NCBI GenBank assembly: GCA_902519955.1
Contig: CABYMF010000010.1
Location: 1 to 43,077 of the forward strand
Length of the DNA: 43,077 nt
From: an uncultured Bacteroidota bacterium
GTDB lineage: Bacteria; Bacteroidota; Bacteroidia; Flavobacteriales; Flavobacteriaceae
Reading direction: 5' to 3'
Below the pieces are notes generated by a model. That model did no database searches and was not told the origin of the DNA. It was given only the letters and a program-made list of their open reading frames with translations. Every line of letters begins with the position of its first letter. Position 1 is the first letter of the stretch. Made by a program: the position numbers and the translations under genes. Shown here one piece after another: positions 5,757 to 22,191 of this stretch.

Positions 5757-6281
5757 ATGTATAAGAATTATAAAAATATTGAACTTGTAAAGCCTGCTGG
5801 TTTAGACTTAAAAGATAAGCTTGTTGGTATCCAAAGAGTTACTAAGGTTACAAAGGGTGGTAGAGCTTTTGGTTTTTCTGCTATTGTTGTAGTAGGTGAC
5901 GAAAATGGAGTTGTTGGTCACGGTCTTGGCAAAGCTAAAGAAGTTACAACCGCAATTTCAAAAGCTGTTGAAGATGCAAAGAAAAACTTAGTAAGAATTC
6001 CAATTGAGAATGGTACCCTACCGCATGAACAAAAAGGAAAGTTTGGTGGGTCTAGAGTTTTTATAAAACCAGCGACTCCTGGTACGGGTGTAATTGCTGG
6101 AGGTGCAGTAAGGACTGTATTGGAAGCAGTTGGCGTACAAAATGTACTCTCTAAATCTCAAGGGTCATCTAACCCTCATAATGTTGTTAAGGCTACATTT
6201 GATGCACTTCTTAACTTAAGAAGTCCATTAATGATTTCTCAACAAAGAGGTATTTCTCTTGATAAAGTTTTTAAAGGATGA
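5757..6281 (+). CDS. rpsE: 30S ribosomal protein S5
   Basis: S5 lies at the mRNA entrance and affects decoding accuracy; mutations in its loop near residues 20-35 give spectinomycin resistance in E. coli. The 174-residue product shows the N-terminal double-stranded-RNA-binding fold ([31 protein letters not shown]) and the C-terminal S5 domain ([19 protein letters not shown]). It overlaps rpmD by 4 bases. Confidence 0.98.
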
Positions 6282-15268: not shown

Positions 15269-17038
15269 ATGGAAATCAAATCAGAGATTTCAAATCTTGC
15301 ATCTAATTTTTTAAATAAAAATTTTAACATTAAAGCTGACTTTATTGAAATTCAAAATACTAAAAAAGACTTTGTGGGTGATATTACAATTGTACTTTTT
15401 CCATATTTAAAAAATATTGATAAAGATAAATCAGATTTTGGTAAAAAATTTGGTGATTATATTAAAAAAAATTCATCCAATATTCATGATTTTAATATAG
15501 CAGGCGGATTTTTAAACCTTACCATTTCTGATAATTATTACACAAATTTTATAAATTCAATTATTGATAATCTAAATTTTGGTAAAACAGAACCTTCTAA
15601 TGAGACATTTATTATTGAATTCTCTTCTCCAAATACAAATAAACCTCTTCACTTAGGCCATATAAGAAACAACCTATTAGGATATTCTATTTCTAAAATT
15701 TTAGAAGCTAATGGTAAAAAAGTTCAAAAAGTTCAAATAATCAATGATCGTGGGATTCATATATGTAAATCTATGATTGCCTGGAAACAATTTGCTAATG
15801 GATCAACCCCAAAATCATTAAATGTTAAAGGAGATAAATTTGTGGGTGATTATTATATAATGTTTGATAAAATTCATAAAGAACAGATGAAAGATTTAAT
15901 TGAATCTGGTATGGATAAAGATTTAGCATCTGAGAGCACTGATATAATGAAATCTGCTAAAGAGGAGCTAACAAAATGGGAGAATAATGATAAAGAAACA
16001 AGAGAAATATGGAAAATGATGAATGACTGGGTATATAATGGTTTTGACAAGACATACAATCTACTTGGTGTTTCGTTTGATAAAAATTATTTTGAAAGTG
16101 ATACCTATCTTTTGGGTAAAGACATAATTTTAGAAGGACTAAAAAATAATGTGTTATACAAAAGAGATGACTCATCAGTATGGATAAATTTAGATAGTGA
16201 TGGTTTTGATGAGAAGCTTTTGTTAAGATCTGATGGTACATCTGTTTATATTACGCAAGATCTAGGTACTGCAGTTCAAAGGATTTCTGATCATTCTAAT
16301 GTAAAGGGTATGATTTACACAGTTGGTAATGAACAAGATTATCATTTTAAAGTATTATTTAAAATATTAAAGAAATTAGGTTATGATTGGGCTGATAATC
16401 TCTATCATTTAAGTTATGGAATGGTAGATCTTCCAACTGGAAAAATGAAAAGTAGAGAAGGGACTGTCGTTGATGCAGACGATTTGATTTATGAACTTAT
16501 TGATACTGTTAAAGAAACAACAAAGAGCCTAGATAAATATCAGTCATCAAATGAATTATTAGATTATGAAGAATATAGAAAGATTGCACTAGCTGCACTT
16601 AAGTATTATATACTAAAAGTTGATCCAAAAAAAAATATTTTATTTAACCCTGAAGAATCAATTGATTTAACAGGTAATACTGGTCCTTTTATTCAATATG
16701 CATATGTTAGAATTAAATCAATTCTTAAAAAGGTTAATAAGGATGCAGGTATTAATATTGAATATAAGTTAAATGAAAAAGAGAAAGAGGTAATTAAGGT
16801 TATTCATGAATTTCCTTCAGTAATTAAAAGTTCATACAAAGAACTCTCACCTGCATTAATCGCTAATTATCTTTATGATTTAGTTAAAAGCTATAACTCT
16901 CTTTATCAAAACCATCATATTCTTAATTCTGAGAGTAAAGACTCAACTTCAATTAGGCTAACTATTTCATCTAAGACTGCTGAGATTATTGAATCCTGTT
17001 GTGATCTCTTAGGTATAGAACTACCAAATAAAATGTAA
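15269..17038 (+). CDS. argS: Arginyl-tRNA synthetase
   Basis: Class I synthetase that charges tRNA-Arg. The 589-residue protein has the N-terminal additional domain, the HIGH-type motif HLGH at 128-131 within SPNTNKPLHLGHIRNN, the KMSKS-equivalent GKMKSREG at 391-398, and the C-terminal DALR anticodon-binding domain after about 470 (NTGPFIQYAYVRIKSIL). Eight bases separate it from gltA. It converges on the proteorhodopsin gene across a shared hairpin terminator. Confidence 0.97.
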   Translation: MEIKSEISNLASNFLNKNFNIKADFIEIQNTKKDFVGDITIVLFPYLKNIDKDKSDFGKKFGDYIKKNSSNIHDFNIAGGFLNLTISDNYYTNFINSIIDNLNFGKTEPSNETFIIEFSSPNTNKPLHLGHIRNNLLGYSISKILEANGKKVQKVQIINDRGIHICKSMIAWKQFANGSTPKSLNVKGDKFVGDYYIMFDKIHKEQMKDLIESGMDKDLASESTDIMKSAKEELTKWENNDKETREIWKMMNDWVYNGFDKTYNLLGVSFDKNYFESDTYLLGKDIILEGLKNNVLYKRDDSSVWINLDSDGFDEKLLLRSDGTSVYITQDLGTAVQRISDHSNVKGMIYTVGNEQDYHFKVLFKILKKLGYDWADNLYHLSYGMVDLPTGKMKSREGTVVDADDLIYELIDTVKETTKSLDKYQSSNELLDYEEYRKIALAALKYYILKVDPKKNILFNPEESIDLTGNTGPFIQYAYVRIKSILKKVNKDAGINIEYKLNEKEKEVIKVIHEFPSVIKSSYKELSPALIANYLYDLVKSYNSLYQNHHILNSESKDSTSIRLTISSKTAEIIESCCDLLGIELPNKM

Positions 17039-17064
17039 AAAAAAGTCACCCGAAGGTGACTTTT
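17037..17064 (-). terminator. Terminator with C(UUCG)G tetraloop, between argS and proteorhodopsin
   Basis: A perfect 10-bp stem (17041-17050 with 17055-17064) closes a four-base loop. Read on the minus strand, the loop is TTCG closed by C-G, the extra-stable UUCG tetraloop, followed by eight T's (17044 down to 17037). This makes a strong terminator for the opsin gene; on the plus strand it has a shorter T-tract and may also end argS transcription. Confidence 0.9.
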
Positions 17065-17082: not shown

Positions 17083-17799
17083 TTACTTAGAAACTGCAAG
17101 GTTGTAAACAACAAGACCAAAACCGATTTTGTTAATTGCATCACCGACGTTGTAAATAACATCCATTTGACCTGCAAGGCCACTAAAGATACCACTATAC
17201 CATCCATCAGTTCCAGCCATATATCCTATAGGATAAATAGCCCAACCTATTAGTACGAATTTACATAGCATTTTATGAGCACTCTCAACGTTACCACCAG
17301 CTGATTTAGCAAGCTTAGAAGCTCCACCAAACCAAATTTCAGCAACAATTGCAAAATAAGCTATACCAGAAACAAGACCCCATAATTGAGCGTCTAGAGG
17401 TCCAATACCTGCTTCTCCAAAGTAACCAGTTACTAACATTACCGTTGAAAGTAGAATAAGTTTCCATAATAGGCTTTTTGTAGCACCTGATGGCTTTAAA
17501 ATTAGATAAAACTCTACACACATAAGTGGTACAGTTAAGATCCAATCTACATACCTATAGGCAGTAGTAATGTCACCTTCCATAGCAGCATTTCTCATGT
17601 AGTAATAGTGAAGAGCTGCAATACCAGTAATTAAAGCTGATACAAGCATAGAAGTTTTCCACTTATCTGCAACCATATTCATAGCTGAGAAAAAGAACAT
17701 TGTAGATGCTAACATAGCAGCAAATCCAATCCAAAAAGTGAAATCAGTCAAGCTTAAATCAGTGGCTAATACTGGTAAAATACTTAATAAATTTTCCAT
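17083..17799 (-). CDS. Proteorhodopsin, proton-pumping, predicted green-absorbing
   Basis: A seven-helix retinal protein that pumps protons out of the cell in light. The 238-residue sequence has seven hydrophobic segments. Key residues are His64 (helix B, the PR His75 equivalent), Asp85 as proton acceptor, Thr89 and Glu96 as donor (the D-T-E pattern in RYVDWILTVPLMCVE), Asp220 as counter-ion and Lys224 for the Schiff base (DAINKIGFG). The spectral-tuning site (PR residue 105) is Met93, which in flavobacterial PRs goes with green absorption. The gene is alone on its transcript, bounded by a strong terminator, and is divergent from blh across 109 bases. No Na+ (NDQ) or Cl- (NTQ) motif is present, so a proton pump is the clear reading. 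Confidence 0.97.
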   Translation of the reverse strand: MENLLSILPVLATDLSLTDFTFWIGFAAMLASTMFFFSAMNMVADKWKTSMLVSALITGIAALHYYYMRNAAMEGDITTAYRYVDWILTVPLMCVEFYLILKPSGATKSLLWKLILLSTVMLVTGYFGEAGIGPLDAQLWGLVSGIAYFAIVAEIWFGGASKLAKSAGGNVESAHKMLCKFVLIGWAIYPIGYMAGTDGWYSGIFSGLAGQMDVIYNVGDAINKIGFGLVVYNLAVSK

Positions 17800-17908
17800 A
17801 ATTAAATTAATTATTGTTTATAAAAAAGTAAATTAAATAAAATAATGGAGTAAAAAAAGATTATTTGAAAAAAAATCATATCTTATTTTATGAATATTTT
17901 AATAAAAT
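17800..17908. promoter_or_regulatory. Divergent opsin-blh promoter region
   Basis: This 109-base, very AT-rich spacer must hold the promoters of both divergent genes. I found no perfect TAnnTTTG box on either strand. The best minus-strand candidate is TACTTTTT at 17830-17823, 23 bases before the opsin ATG, with one mismatch and no clear -33 TTG. A dyad lies at its right end. Confidence 0.6.
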
Positions 17909-17910
17909 AT
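17894..17910. repeat. 8-bp inverted repeat overlapping the blh start codon
   Basis: ATATTTTA (17894-17901) and TAAAATAT (17903-17910) form a perfect dyad with a one-base spacer; the right arm includes the first two bases of the blh ATG. Such a site could be an operator, but all-AT dyads arise readily by chance here. Confidence 0.45.
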
Positions 17911-18793
17911 GGTAAAAATTATTAAATCAAGAATACTAATTTTTATTATCTCTATAGGTATAAGTTTCTTATTACCAGTAATTTATCAAGATATATTAGG
18001 CTTTATATTAATTCTTTCTATTGGAATAATTCATGGAGCAAATGACCTGTTAATAATTAAAAAATATACTAGAAAAAATAACTTATATAGTCAAATTTCT
18101 TATTTTTTATCGTATTTAGGACTAGTTTTTCTTGGCTTTTTATTCTTTTATCTTTTTCCTTCAATTGCCTTACTATCATTTGTATTGGTCTCAATTTATC
18201 ATTTTGGAGAGCAACATTGGGTGGCGAATATATCAAATACTAACATTGTTAAAATAAAAAAGTTATATCCCATTATTTTACATGGTTTAATATTTTTTGT
18301 AATTGTATTTATGAATAATATAAATATTGTAAATAATGTCTTATTAAGTTTTAATACTATTTCTCTTAATTATTCTTCATTAAGAATTTTACTTATTATA
18401 TTATTCTTACTATATATGATATTTCTACTATCATCTAAGTCAATGAGGGGCTATTTTGTAGGTGAGTTTGTATTCTTTATTTTATTATTCTTTTTAACAC
18501 TAAATTCGAGCTTGATTTATGGTTTTTCTATTTATTTCATTTTTTTTCATAGTCTTTTATCTATTAATGATCAAGTCAAATATATTTATGGTGACGATAG
18601 TTTAGGATTCATCAAAAAGTATTTAATTAGTGCATTACCATATTTTATTCTTTCTATATTGTTTTTAACTGGATTCTATTTTTTTATTGACTTTGAATCT
18701 TTAAACATTATTCCAATTATGTTTACTTTTCTTGCTGCAATTACTTTCCCTCATGTTTTTGTGATTGAAAAAATGTATAGCATTATGAAATAG
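17909..18793 (+). CDS. blh: Beta-carotene 15,15'-dioxygenase, Brp/Blh family
   Basis: Cleaves beta-carotene symmetrically into two retinal molecules, the chromophore for the neighbouring opsin. The 294-residue protein is a multi-pass membrane protein of usual family length. Conserved His residues appear in the family motifs: His42 (GIIHGANDLLI), His98 and His103 (SIYHFGEQHW), His214 (FFHSLLSINDQ) and His282 (TFPHVFVIEKMY); in this family such residues bind iron. It is divergent from the proteorhodopsin and 39 bases before folD. No other carotenoid genes (crtE, B, I, Y) are in the window, so its substrate must come from genes elsewhere. Very AT-rich, Ile/Phe/Leu-rich sequence. Confidence 0.94.
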   Translation: MVKIIKSRILIFIISIGISFLLPVIYQDILGFILILSIGIIHGANDLLIIKKYTRKNNLYSQISYFLSYLGLVFLGFLFFYLFPSIALLSFVLVSIYHFGEQHWVANISNTNIVKIKKLYPIILHGLIFFVIVFMNNINIVNNVLLSFNTISLNYSSLRILLIILFLLYMIFLLSSKSMRGYFVGEFVFFILLFFLTLNSSLIYGFSIYFIFFHSLLSINDQVKYIYGDDSLGFIKKYLISALPYFILSILFLTGFYFFIDFESLNIIPIMFTFLAAITFPHVFVIEKMYSIMK

Positions 18794-18832: not shown

Positions 18833-19708
18833 ATGAAACTAATTGATGGAAAAAATATATCGGGAAAAGTTTTAGACGAAATTAAATTATCTGTAGATAA
18901 TAGATTGAAGAATAATTTAAAAATTCCTCACTTAGCAGCAATTTTGGTTGGAAATGATGGTGCTAGTAAAACATATGTAAATAGTAAGATTAAAGCATGT
19001 GAAAGAGTAGGTTTTAAATCGTCACTTTTTAAGTTTGATGATTCAATAAGTGAGATTAAGCTTATATCTCAAGTACAAAATATTAATAATAATGATGATA
19101 TTGACGGATTTATCGTTCAATTACCATTACCTCAACATATAGATCAAGAAAAAATTTTAAATGAGATAAGCCCAGATAAAGATGTTGATGGTTTTCATCC
19201 AAATAATTATGGTAAAATGACACTGGGAATAGATACTTTTTTGCCTGCTACACCAGCAGGTATTATTGAGCTAATCGAAAGATCTGAAATACAAACTGAG
19301 GGTAAAAAATGTCTAGTCATTGGAAGAAGTCAAATAGTAGGAAGACCTATCAGTATTCTTCTAAGTCAAAATAAAAGTTTTGGTAATTCAACAGTTACTG
19401 TCGCACATAGTAGATCAAAAGATCTAAGAAAATTATGTCTTGAATCTGATATAATAATTTCTGCTATTGGTATACCTGAATTTATAAAGGGTGACATGAT
19501 AAAAGATGGCTCATCAATTATAGATGTTGGCATAACTAGAGTAAAAGACAGATCATCACCAAAAGGATATAGAATAACTGGTGATGTAGATTTTAAGAGT
19601 GTATCTTCCAAGGTTGGTTATATTACTCCTGTTCCCGGTGGTGTTGGACCAATGACAATCTCGATGCTACTAAAAAATACATTAAAGGCTTGTGAAATAT
19701 CCGATTAG
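18833..19708 (+). CDS. folD: Methylene-THF dehydrogenase / methenyl-THF cyclohydrolase
   Basis: Bifunctional enzyme of one-carbon metabolism: it oxidises 5,10-methylene-THF with NADP and hydrolyses the product to 10-formyl-THF, needed for purines and formyl-Met. The 291-residue product contains the catalytic YxxxK pair (Tyr48, Lys52 in SKTYVNSKIKAC), the IVQLPLPQHI motif, PDKDVDGFHP (114-123), a Rossmann loop GRSQIVGRP (164-172) and the C-terminal PVPGGVGPMT. It stands downstream of blh but has its own likely promoter. It converges on the next gene with a 4-base overlap, the two stops sharing TTAG. Confidence 0.97.
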   Translation: MKLIDGKNISGKVLDEIKLSVDNRLKNNLKIPHLAAILVGNDGASKTYVNSKIKACERVGFKSSLFKFDDSISEIKLISQVQNINNNDDIDGFIVQLPLPQHIDQEKILNEISPDKDVDGFHPNNYGKMTLGIDTFLPATPAGIIELIERSEIQTEGKKCLVIGRSQIVGRPISILLSQNKSFGNSTVTVAHSRSKDLRKLCLESDIIISAIGIPEFIKGDMIKDGSSIIDVGITRVKDRSSPKGYRITGDVDFKSVSSKVGYITPVPGGVGPMTISMLLKNTLKACEISD

Positions 19709-20577
19709 CTTTCAATCTTATTCATTAGACTATAAATCTTTAAAATCAATAAACCAAAAAGTACGCTAGATACTATTAATAATAAATTGGTTAAGCCAGT
19801 CGAAGAGAAAGATAGTCTTATAAGTATTGTACAAATAATAAAGCCAGTATTTCTCATAATTTGACTATATCTTTCAGTATATAAGAAAGATAAAAGAAGT
19901 ATAAAAACATCTGCGATAATTAAGATTGAGAAGAAAGTATTATAGAATACCTCATTCACATAATAAAATGAAATTGCAAAGTTTGAAGTAAGACCTATAG
20001 TATACCAGTCAAATATTCCAATAGCAAATAGAACGAGCATAACTGGAATAAGTATTACACTTATTATTTTTTTTGAATCTATAAATTTGTCAATATTTTT
20101 AATCGCTTTTTTATTTATAATACTTGATTTTACATAATTGAAAAGGTAAATCAAGAAAAATAGCGTTAGTATACAAATTAAATCATAGATAATCTGAAGG
20201 TTGTCAGGATTACTAAACCAATCGCTTGATTCTAGATCTAACTTAGGAATATCATAAAAAATTCTTCTTATAATAATAAGCGAAATAATCTCGAATTGTT
20301 TTAAAATAGATGTTGTAAAAGACCTGGGTAAGAAAAAGATTAATAAGAAAATTTCGTAATATAAAATTATTGAAAATGGTGTATATATTGCAGAAATGGG
20401 GTTAGTAAGGAATAAACTTTCATCACCTATGTTAATTATTGAATAATTATTAAGTAATACAAGTGATAAATGAAAAATAAACCCAATAGTAGCTGACCAA
20501 ATTGTAAAACCTTCAATTTTTTTTCTGTTTTCTTCAGAAAATATGCCATCAAAAATTTTCGATCCAATTTTAATCAT
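19705..20577 (-). CDS. Polytopic membrane protein of unknown function
   Basis: I do not recognise this 290-residue protein. It has six or seven hydrophobic segments at about 22-42, 61-84, 127-150, 170-190, 212-233 and 245-285 (the last long enough for two). Between segments two and three lies an amphipathic stretch with a double Arg (LIIIRRIFYDIPKL, 100-113), and a short Lys-rich loop is at 150-170. No signal peptide, nucleotide-binding or metal motif was seen. It is the last gene of the minus-strand run namZ, VOC gene and this gene, starting two bases after the VOC stop, so co-expression is very likely. Its stop overlaps that of folD by 4 bases. Confidence 0.85.
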   Translation of the reverse strand: MIKIGSKIFDGIFSEENRKKIEGFTIWSATIGFIFHLSLVLLNNYSIINIGDESLFLTNPISAIYTPFSIILYYEIFLLIFFLPRSFTTSILKQFEIISLIIIRRIFYDIPKLDLESSDWFSNPDNLQIIYDLICILTLFFLIYLFNYVKSSIINKKAIKNIDKFIDSKKIISVILIPVMLVLFAIGIFDWYTIGLTSNFAISFYYVNEVFYNTFFSILIIADVFILLLSFLYTERYSQIMRNTGFIICTILIRLSFSSTGLTNLLLIVSSVLFGLLILKIYSLMNKIES

Positions 20578-20579
20578 AT

Positions 20580-21008
20580 TTAAATTTTAGTTGAGAATAA
20601 CATATTAATATCCTTAAATGATTTAAATTCAAGAGCATTTCCTGAATTATCATAAAAAAACATTGTCTTTTGTTCACCTGGTAGCCCCTCAAATCTGATA
20701 TATGGTTCTATTACAAAATGAATATTATTTGTATTTAACATATTTGCAAATTTATCAAAGTCATCCCAAGGGATAACAACTCCAAAATGGGGAATTGGAA
20801 TAGATTTTCCATCTACCTCATTATGATGAGCTTTCCCCTCATGATTTGGATCAACATGAATAACTAGCTGATGTCCAAAAAAATCATAATCTGCCCACTC
20901 ATCAGATTCTCTGCCTAATTTACACTTGAGTACATTTTCATAAAAGTCTTTTGATTCTGATAAATTCTTTACTGGAATAGCAAGATGAAATGGGGATAAT
21001 TTTGTCAT
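20580..21008 (-). CDS. VOC-fold (glyoxalase/dioxygenase superfamily) protein
   Basis: A 142-residue protein of the vicinal-oxygen-chelate superfamily, with two beta-alpha-beta-beta-beta modules. Likely metal ligands are His8 (SPFHLAIPVKNL), His74 (PIPHFGVVIPWDDF) and Glu127 (SGNALEFKSF). Reactions in this superfamily include glyoxalase, epimerase and ring-cleaving dioxygenase, and the exact one cannot be told. I chose the ATG at 21008: the frame is open upstream to 21095 but that part overlaps namZ and is unlike the family. It starts 7 bases after the namZ stop and ends 2 bases before the membrane-protein gene. Confidence 0.88.
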   Translation of the reverse strand: MTKLSPFHLAIPVKNLSESKDFYENVLKCKLGRESDEWADYDFFGHQLVIHVDPNHEGKAHHNEVDGKSIPIPHFGVVIPWDDFDKFANMLNTNNIHFVIEPYIRFEGLPGEQKTMFFYDNSGNALEFKSFKDINMLFSTKI

Positions 21009-21015
21009 AATTAAT

Positions 21016-22191
21016 TCAATATAATAAATATTTCTTTCTAATTTTTTTAAACTTTTCAAGACCATCATTCCAAGACTCTCTAATTTCAGATTCACTTAGG
21101 CCATTGATTATTTGTTCTTTTAAATTAGAAGTTCCGGATAATTTATTAAAATCACTTCTAAAAAAATTATTTTTATCACTAATCTGATCATAAGATTTAA
21201 TTAACCATTTGAGTTCAATTATTTTATTGGTTTCATATTCCCTTAGATCTTCACCAAAAGATAATTTTCCGTTTAATTTTGGATATTGACTTCCAAAGTT
21301 TGGCAAAGGAGTAAAGCTAAAACCACTTTTAAAGTCAGGATGACCATAAATTTGAAATTGAATTTTAGTTCCTCTCCCAACACTTACTTCAGTCTTTTCA
21401 AGAAAAGCCAAACTTGGATAAAGATATATTGATTGAAGGTTAGGTAGGTTCGGGGAAGGTCTTACAGGGGGATCATATCTCATATTATGAGTATAATTTT
21501 CTATCTTAATTACCTCTAAGTCAGCTCTCAATTTATCACCTAACCATCCTTCTTCATTTATCATTTTTCCATATTCACCTATTGTCATTCCATAAACTAT
21601 AGGAACTGGGTGTAATCCAATAAAACTTGAATTTTCCTTTTCCAAAACAGGCCCATCAATGTAGAATGAATTTGGATTGGGTCTATCTAAAATTATTATT
21701 TTTTTGTTTGATCTAGAGGCAGCTTCCATTGCATAGTGGAGAGTCGATAAATAAGTGTAAAATCTTACCCCAACATCTTGAATATCAAAAATTATTATAT
21801 CAATCCCTTCTAAATCATCATCACTAATTTTTCTTTTCTTTCCATATAAAGAAATTACCTCAATAGATTTATATAACCCATCTTCAATCTTTTCCCCATC
21901 ATCTTTATCTCCAAGAAATCCATGTTCCGGACTAAATATTTTTTCTATTTCAATATTTCTCTTTAAAAGAGTATCTATTAGGTGGACTGACAGTTCCCCG
22001 TTTCTGACAATACTTGTGTTATTGGCAATTACAGCTATTTTTTTATTAACTAGTTTATTGATATAATTATTTAGTCTCTCAGAACCAGGAATAATTTCTT
22101 GAGACTGTACTGAGGGAATAATTAGAGAAACCAGAATAAATAAAAGTGTATTTTTGATTAAAATATCTAGCTTGAACTTGCCTTTTTTCAT
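21016..22191 (-). CDS. namZ: Exo-beta-N-acetylmuramidase NamZ (DUF1343, GH171)
   Basis: NamZ releases terminal N-acetylmuramic acid from peptidoglycan fragments, for cell-wall recycling or scavenging. The 391-residue protein has an N-terminal signal segment (hydrophobic 10-29, cleavage probably after VQS-Q near 30), so it is exported. Family motifs are SPEHGF (87-92), FDIQDVGVRFYTY (135-147), LDRPNPN (168-174) and SVGRGTKIQFQIYG near 270. It heads a three-gene operon. Its 5' end overlaps that of the divergent permease gene by about 20 bases, so both promoters must lie within coding sequence of the opposite gene. The call is firm for the family; the precise activity is inherited from studied members. 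Confidence 0.93.
   Translation of the reverse strand: MKKGKFKLDILIKNTLLFILVSLIIPSVQSQEIIPGSERLNNYINKLVNKKIAVIANNTSIVRNGELSVHLIDTLLKRNIEIEKIFSPEHGFLGDKDDGEKIEDGLYKSIEVISLYGKKRKISDDDLEGIDIIIFDIQDVGVRFYTYLSTLHYAMEAASRSNKKIIILDRPNPNSFYIDGPVLEKENSSFIGLHPVPIVYGMTIGEYGKMINEEGWLGDKLRADLEVIKIENYTHNMRYDPPVRPSPNLPNLQSIYLYPSLAFLEKTEVSVGRGTKIQFQIYGHPDFKSGFSFTPLPNFGSQYPKLNGKLSFGEDLREYETNKIIELKWLIKSYDQISDKNNFFRSDFNKLSGTSNLKEQIINGLSESEIRESWNDGLEKFKKIRKKYLLY

Follow-up and report, generated by a model that had tools for sequence, protein, structure and literature searches.

Proteorhodopsin (PR) is among the commonest energy devices of the sunlit sea, little is known of the genes that matter besides those for the opsin and for retinal synthesis, and the benefits of light differ between strains. 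The locus described here raises the question of which genes make up such a system, as an earlier note on the sequence had read a divergent pair of PR and blh genes as a complete retinal-plus-opsin module. The window, that is, the whole 43,077-nucleotide stretch analysed (contig CABYMF010000010.1 of assembly GCA_902519955.1), comes from a 1.04 Mb assembly of 39 contigs that is 78.7% complete. Its genome was assigned to the streamlined genus MED-G11 (NS5_A, Candidatus Marisimplicoccus), an equation of names made in the accessible sections of Priest et al., 2022 (PMC9122927), where a green-light PR is described as a unifying feature across the NS5 genera. By sequence, the pair would indeed supply a light-driven H+ pump and a retinal synthase; the word complete may be wrong, since a third gene, here named TM290, follows rhodopsin.

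The opsin gene (17083..17799, minus strand; 238 aa) encodes a predicted green-type DTE proton pump. The protein matched PF01036 (Bac_rhodopsin) with an E value of 6.4e-41 and 140.7 bits against a cut-off of 24.6, and its closest solved relatives are the proteorhodopsins 9jov and 9jou. Alignment placed residues D85, T89, M93, E96, H64 and K224 at what we take to be D97, T101, L105, E108, H75 and K231 of green PR in standard numbering, and thus the Asp acceptor, the Thr and the Glu donor of the DTE set (D85, T89, E96) and the Schiff-base Lys (K224) are all present. The Met at the position-105 site was found in 109 of 110 aligned opsins; green-type PR is presumably marked by Leu or Met, not Gln, at this position. 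These residues suggest that PR is a light-driven outward proton pump. G141 was Gly in 110 of 110 opsins and may correspond to the fenestration site, which was placed by counting along an alignment lacking an XR row; in the accessible text of PMC12308411, this site in carotenoid-antenna rhodopsins is Gly156 (XR) or Gly153 (Kin4B8). A phage origin of PR was considered and rejected, as the protein had no match among 50,697 phage records at an E value of 1e-5.

The partner gene, blh (17909..18793, plus strand; 294 aa), encodes a putative beta-carotene 15,15'-dioxygenase (Brp/Blh), matching PF15461 (E value of 4.7e-34) and TIGR03753 (144.7 bits, cut-off 95.25). The key His residues, whose loss the earlier note had named as grounds for abandoning the reading, were retained: H42, D46, H98 and H214 in 87 of 87 aligned rows, and H282 in 86, the remaining row having a gap. 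Blh is thus predicted to form retinal by cleaving beta-carotene. A Pfam scan of 18 window ORFs, a subset of all ORFs, recognised no carotenoid gene, and crtB (PF00494) was not found in the window's own 78.7% complete assembly; crtB was found in 19 of 25 genus genomes. The substrate pathway therefore lies elsewhere, as the earlier note had held in stating that blh is not linked to its substrate supply. In one genus genome (G022, contig C4; L152:6270-7549), crtB is directly followed by a fatty-acid-hydroxylase-family gene, which we take to be crtZ-like, suggesting that the genus may make hydroxylated carotenoids, a possible antenna. As a separate observation, G049 has a blh match (C1:356001-356687; L056) at a great distance from its PR gene; the match falls within an open frame of 649 codons that may encode a fusion protein.

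The coordinates confirmed exactly that PR and blh stand head to head, 109 nt apart. The housekeeping flanks were borne out by Pfam: argS (15269..17038, plus strand; PF00750/PF05746) is convergent with PR, and folD (18833..19708, plus strand; PF02882/PF00763) lies between blh and TM290 (19705..20577, minus strand). An 18-genome alignment and an inverted-repeat scan revealed a terminator-like hairpin (17041..17064, minus strand) between the convergent argS and PR genes. No mobile-element family scored above cut-off among the 18 window ORFs scanned, in keeping with the earlier claim that the locus bears no such trace. The comparison of neighbourhoods that the same note had called for recovered argS-PR-blh-folD in 18 of 18 genus genomes with a full-length PR match, the window's own included (L001-L018), and the order argS, PR, blh, folD, TM290, glyoxalase, namZ is recurrent in the genus. 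The glyoxalase ORF listed for the window (20580-21095) has a GTG start and overlaps namZ (21016-22191); its true start is probably an ATG near 21008. In G017 (C1:33147-34917), argS was read in two frames with a stop inside a long contig, perhaps a frameshift error.

The layout was then counted at 109 rhodopsin loci, 67 from the family and 42 from outside it. The family loci came from 51 of the 52 rhodopsin carriers of the family sample (without the truncated G137), 15 of the order sample and the second rhodopsin of G197, the second rhodopsins of G209 and G230 being left out; the outside loci came from 41 of 60 carriers, with 19 left out. PR and blh were divergent at 65 of the 67 family loci, indicating that head-to-head is the family layout. 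The 42 loci from other Flavobacteriales families comprised 17 with PR then blh, four with blh then PR, three divergent, one convergent, and 17 without blh in the short flank. Several other lineages (L172 among them) carry an extra gene, presumably ffh, between blh and folD at the same site, and in L166 the site is without PR and blh, the rhodopsin lying elsewhere in that genome. The PR–blh module at this locus is thus ordinary for its family. The accessible text of Kumagai et al., 2018 (PMC5932025) likewise reports that the rhodopsin gene commonly lies next to blh, and describes loss of both in place in Polaribacter.

The spacer between the two genes (17800..17908) is conserved in length (107–109 nt) and sequence across the 18 genus genomes, with a mean identity of 89%, against 77% for the blh–folD spacer and 64–76% for third positions of conserved codons. 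This constraint and the divergent layout at nearly all family loci are what one light-responsive operator co-regulating both genes would lead one to expect; the earlier note had suggested that a single regulator could control the two. However, the argS–PR spacer is equally conserved (89%), and identity within the PR/blh spacer is higher towards PR (93%) than towards blh (83%). Sigma-70-like sites, a pattern that differs from the Bacteroidota-type promoter, were in no excess (17 found vs. 14.9 expected), and the inverted repeats in the spacer were AT-rich and unremarkable, with no clear shared motif. Moreover, the PR–blh distance, taken between match ends, varies from 71 to 270 nt across the family, the genes are tandem or separate at most loci of other families, and blh expression is described as weak in Dokdonia PRO95 in the accessible part of PMC3587595. 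The conservation pattern fits constrained leader, promoter and terminator sequence. Constraint on the spacer was therefore upheld; a shared regulator was not borne out, and we consider it unlikely.

Decay at this site pointed beyond the pair. Among the 25 genus genomes, 18 carry a full-length PR, and PR is cut by contig ends in G011 and G014; G007, G020 and G023 are uninformative because they are without argS as well as PR. In G006 and G024, argS and folD match at full length and there is no intact PR or blh. In G024 (contig C77; L089:4788-5240, 6156-6260), an in-frame 60-codon PR remnant joins the first and last helix, a short fragment of the blh start reads Asn in place of His-42, and TM290 survives as its two ends, so the deletions kept the ends of genes. 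In G006 (contig C15; L090:4130-4640), decayed fragments of both ends of PR and of blh were found. TM290 was not detectable in G006, about 36 bases separating the folD and glyoxalase matches where it would be expected. As the breakpoints differ between the two genomes, at least some of the deletions were separate. The joint loss of PR, blh and TM290 drew attention to the third gene. Neither crtB nor photolyase, each present in 19 of 25 genus genomes, was found in G006 or G024 (both 82% complete); this carries little weight because the genomes are incomplete, the PR-positive assembly of the window also being without crtB, and the PR-positive G001, G002 and G010 without photolyase. Both genomes look like lineages that left the light, and a match of either to the MED-G11 species with a peak near 300 m reported in the accessible sections of PMC9122927 would fit.

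The distribution of TM290 was then compared with that of rhodopsin, a match with an E value below 1e-70 being scored as strong. Among 60 relatives, three genomes outside the genus had TM290 (G028, G033 and G056), each of them with a rhodopsin; the sole further match was a weak one, at 31%, in the rhodopsin-less G027. In the family sample of 249 genomes, 34 had a strong TM290 match and all 34 had rhodopsin, 18 had rhodopsin only and 197 had neither (Fisher 4.5e-29); strong TM290 was thus present in 0 of 197 rhodopsin-less genomes. This count leaves out G090 (below the Pfam cut-off and scored rhodopsin-less) and keeps the truncated G137. The 34 carriers span 28 genera, and the probability that 28 of 202 genera drawn at random all fall within the 46 rhodopsin genera is 1.7e-22, with the reservation that genera are not independent. 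Over both samples, 38 of 38 distinct TM290-carrying genomes of the family have rhodopsin. Twelve of the 34 carriers have genomes of 2.7–4.2 Mb, indicating that streamlining alone is no explanation; these include G158 (stops inside) and G221 (a frame break), in which TM290 is broken despite the presence of rhodopsin.

The same tendency was seen more widely. In the order sample of 393 genomes, 48 of 54 TM290 carriers had rhodopsin, a count that does not score G090, G478 and G549 (below cut-off) as rhodopsin carriers or G157, G235 and G414 (weak or partial) as TM290 carriers. The six carriers without rhodopsin all lie outside the family, are 85–95% complete and consist of 20–340 contigs; it is possible that true TM290 carriers without rhodopsin exist. 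The best 80 of 519 confirmed TM290 matches gave 69 loci outside the genus, of which 14 had PR in the flank, five were left out of the rhodopsin test and 50 were tested further, 44 lying in genomes with rhodopsin (two of these matches being short fragments) and six in genomes without; this set partly overlaps the family and order samples. The sampled genomes are related and all these counts were made without a species tree.

The co-occurrence is one-way: in the family sample, 18 of the 52 genomes with rhodopsin have no TM290, indicating that PR does not need it. In the 34 family genomes with both, TM290 lay within 10 kb of PR in nine, on the same contig at 72 kb to 1.4 Mb in seven and on another contig in 18, one rhodopsin being used for the distance in genomes with two. 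When TM290 presence was mapped on a 110-opsin tree, the label required 28 changes, at least 14 of them forced by well-supported branches, suggesting that the gene was often lost or gained among rhodopsin carriers; label counts of this kind are inflated by genes missing from incomplete genomes. The count of 28 scored the second rhodopsin of G197 (wrongly) and G414 (partial TM290) as minus; a recount without these two rows and the partial opsin of G450 gave 27, with 16 changes within the 66 rows of the family. In addition, seven opsin sites were compared between TM290 carriers and non-carriers and showed no difference, the deviating letters belonging to the second rhodopsin of G197 and one gapped row.

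In two other lineages, the three genes form runs. In an uncultured Marinoscillum (Reichenbachiellaceae, outside Flavobacteriales; L225:8280-10855), PR, blh and TM290 lie on one strand with gaps of 63 and 47 nt, and in G355 the three genes share a strand over about 3.5 kb, two small ORFs separating blh from TM290. Robiginitalea myxolifaciens DSM 21019 also has TM290 (L231) and rhodopsins (G344). TM290 loci away from PR stood in several unrelated settings, among which no recurrent light gene was recognised. In G033, TM290 adjoins a FAD amine-oxidoreductase-family protein, presumably RetSat-like.

The TM290 protein belongs to no named family among those searched. The window protein had no match in Pfam, none in NCBIfam up to an E value of 0.1 or in PADLOC up to 1, and an insignificant best hit in PHROGs (E value of 0.037). 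The best Pfam match among 59 homologues, used out of 81 sequences (the window protein and the best 80 of 519 confirmed matches), was TMEM260-like at an E value of 0.0014 in three members, and no solved sequence relative was found up to an E value of 10. An AlphaFold2 model (pLDDT 83.1, pTM 0.81) showed a short N-terminal helix and eight long helices of membrane type; a fold search gave a best Foldseek E value of 0.14 and a best Z score of 7.8 (Ost-alpha), within noise for helical proteins. Residues E75, K93, E96, R104, K169, D223, R242 and R254 are invariant in both the rhodopsin-associated clade and a distant clade, and H36, Y65, Y74, W191 and N243 are conserved only in the former. The conservation of charges within the predicted helices suggests that TM290 may be a conduit or transporter.

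The distant clade came from seven rhodopsin-less genomes of the family sample, whose proteins are about 26% identical to TM290; a quick tree, which carried long-branch warnings, set them apart with full SH-aLRT support. Their neighbours were viewed by Pfam scan in three of the seven and as ORFs in the rest. One relative stands behind ureF-ureG-ureD (urease accessory; L333:1652-5095), one between hypA and a hypB-like gene (hydrogenase accessory; L335:3393-5317), and one near a hydantoinase gene, which we take to be hydantoinase B, adjoining a permease; no telling neighbour was recognised for the other four.

Based on these results, we favour the reading, with a probability of roughly 0.6, that flavobacteria have long had a phototrophy site at this locus and that TM290 is most likely a rhodopsin-dependent accessory membrane protein. 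The main rival is ecological: TM290 may be a general gene of sunlit surface waters, retained under light, UV or oligotrophy, where the same waters keep PR too and the two proteins do no joint work. The genomes that lost PR, blh and TM290 are also without crtB and photolyase, incomplete as they are, and TM290 often lies apart from PR, with only nine of 34 within 10 kb. Photolyase-like genes are moreover described as following PR in flavobacteria in the accessible parts of PMC2668756 and PMC5932025, and the link of TM290 may be to light in general. Such a gene would not be expected to keep so strict a company, however, as 34 of 34 and 38 of 38 carriers in the family with rhodopsin, across 28 genera in the first sample and in 12 genomes of 2.7–4.2 Mb, nor to recur in PR–blh–TM290 runs in two other lineages, and we regard the ecological explanation as improbable, if the most serious of the alternatives.

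A second possibility is that the TM290 family supplies metal to, or otherwise serves, metalloenzyme accessory systems, and is present here for Blh rather than for PR. Blh needs iron, and the urease and hydrogenase settings of two distant relatives are both nickel-enzyme accessory clusters. Yet only two of the seven relatives were seen in such clusters, the neighbours being viewed by Pfam scan for three of the seven and as ORFs for the rest; the shared core is charged and offers no His/Cys metal site, and H36 is replaced in seven of seven distant relatives, so this explanation is considerably less probable than the ecological one. That TM290 is a chance passenger of the argS–folD locus could account for its place in MED-G11, two genes away from blh, and for its proximity to the PR and blh genes of several relatives. 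The distribution disfavours this strongly, as rhodopsin is still present in the seven of 34 family genomes with TM290 72 kb to 1.4 Mb from PR, and a passenger origin is hardly credible.

Under the accessory-protein reading, PR would bind retinal and export protons in the light, and Blh would split beta-carotene, supplied by genes elsewhere in the genome, to yield two retinals. TM290, encoded two genes from blh, would be an accessory membrane protein useful only to cells with rhodopsin, at best guess a transporter or ion conduit by which the membrane is better able to cope with, or to use, the light-driven proton flux. More tentatively, at a little under even odds, TM290 would represent a new eight-helix family whose rhodopsin clade serves rhodopsin phototrophy in Bacteroidota as a third component, dedicated to it yet dispensable, its sister clade serving other systems. 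A common role of the family in handling protons, ions or the membrane potential, alongside auxiliary systems that move protons, would fit the settings of both clades.

Several known systems resemble this one in part. The flavobacterial PR–blh pair, often adjacent and lost in place in Polaribacter, is described in the accessible parts of PMC5932025, PMC3587595 and PMC2668756; the site here differs in its order, argS-PR-blh-folD-TM290, and in its clade, the streamlined MED-G11. No TM290-like gene is named as PR-linked in those parts, and one may already stand in the supplementary tables of Kumagai et al. (2018), whose accessible text gives 43 PR-enriched groups and many groups of unknown function among 129 biased ones. 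A figure legend in PMC3587595 lists a 'membrane protein' without a gene name close to PR in Dokdonia PRO95. TM290 is not among the three genes reported by Woyke et al. in the accessible text of PMC2668756, which had to be present in all six PR genomes. Flotillin-associated rhodopsin (PMC10308929) likewise ties a rhodopsin to one non-rhodopsin gene in streamlined genomes, whereas TM290 falls in no named family and the rhodopsin here is an ordinary PR. The photolyase-like flavoproteins also track PR outside retinal synthesis, going by the accessible parts of PMC2668756 and PMC5932025; unlike them, TM290 encodes a membrane protein, and 18 of 52 rhodopsin carriers do not have it.

The remnants in G006 and G024 provide a natural record of a streamlined marine lineage giving up its light pump. 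The PR–blh pair itself is already known and ordinary, and TM290 is the new element, a testable candidate for a further component of rhodopsin phototrophy. Present in 34 of the 52 rhodopsin carriers of the family sample, it could be one hidden variable behind the varying benefit of light.
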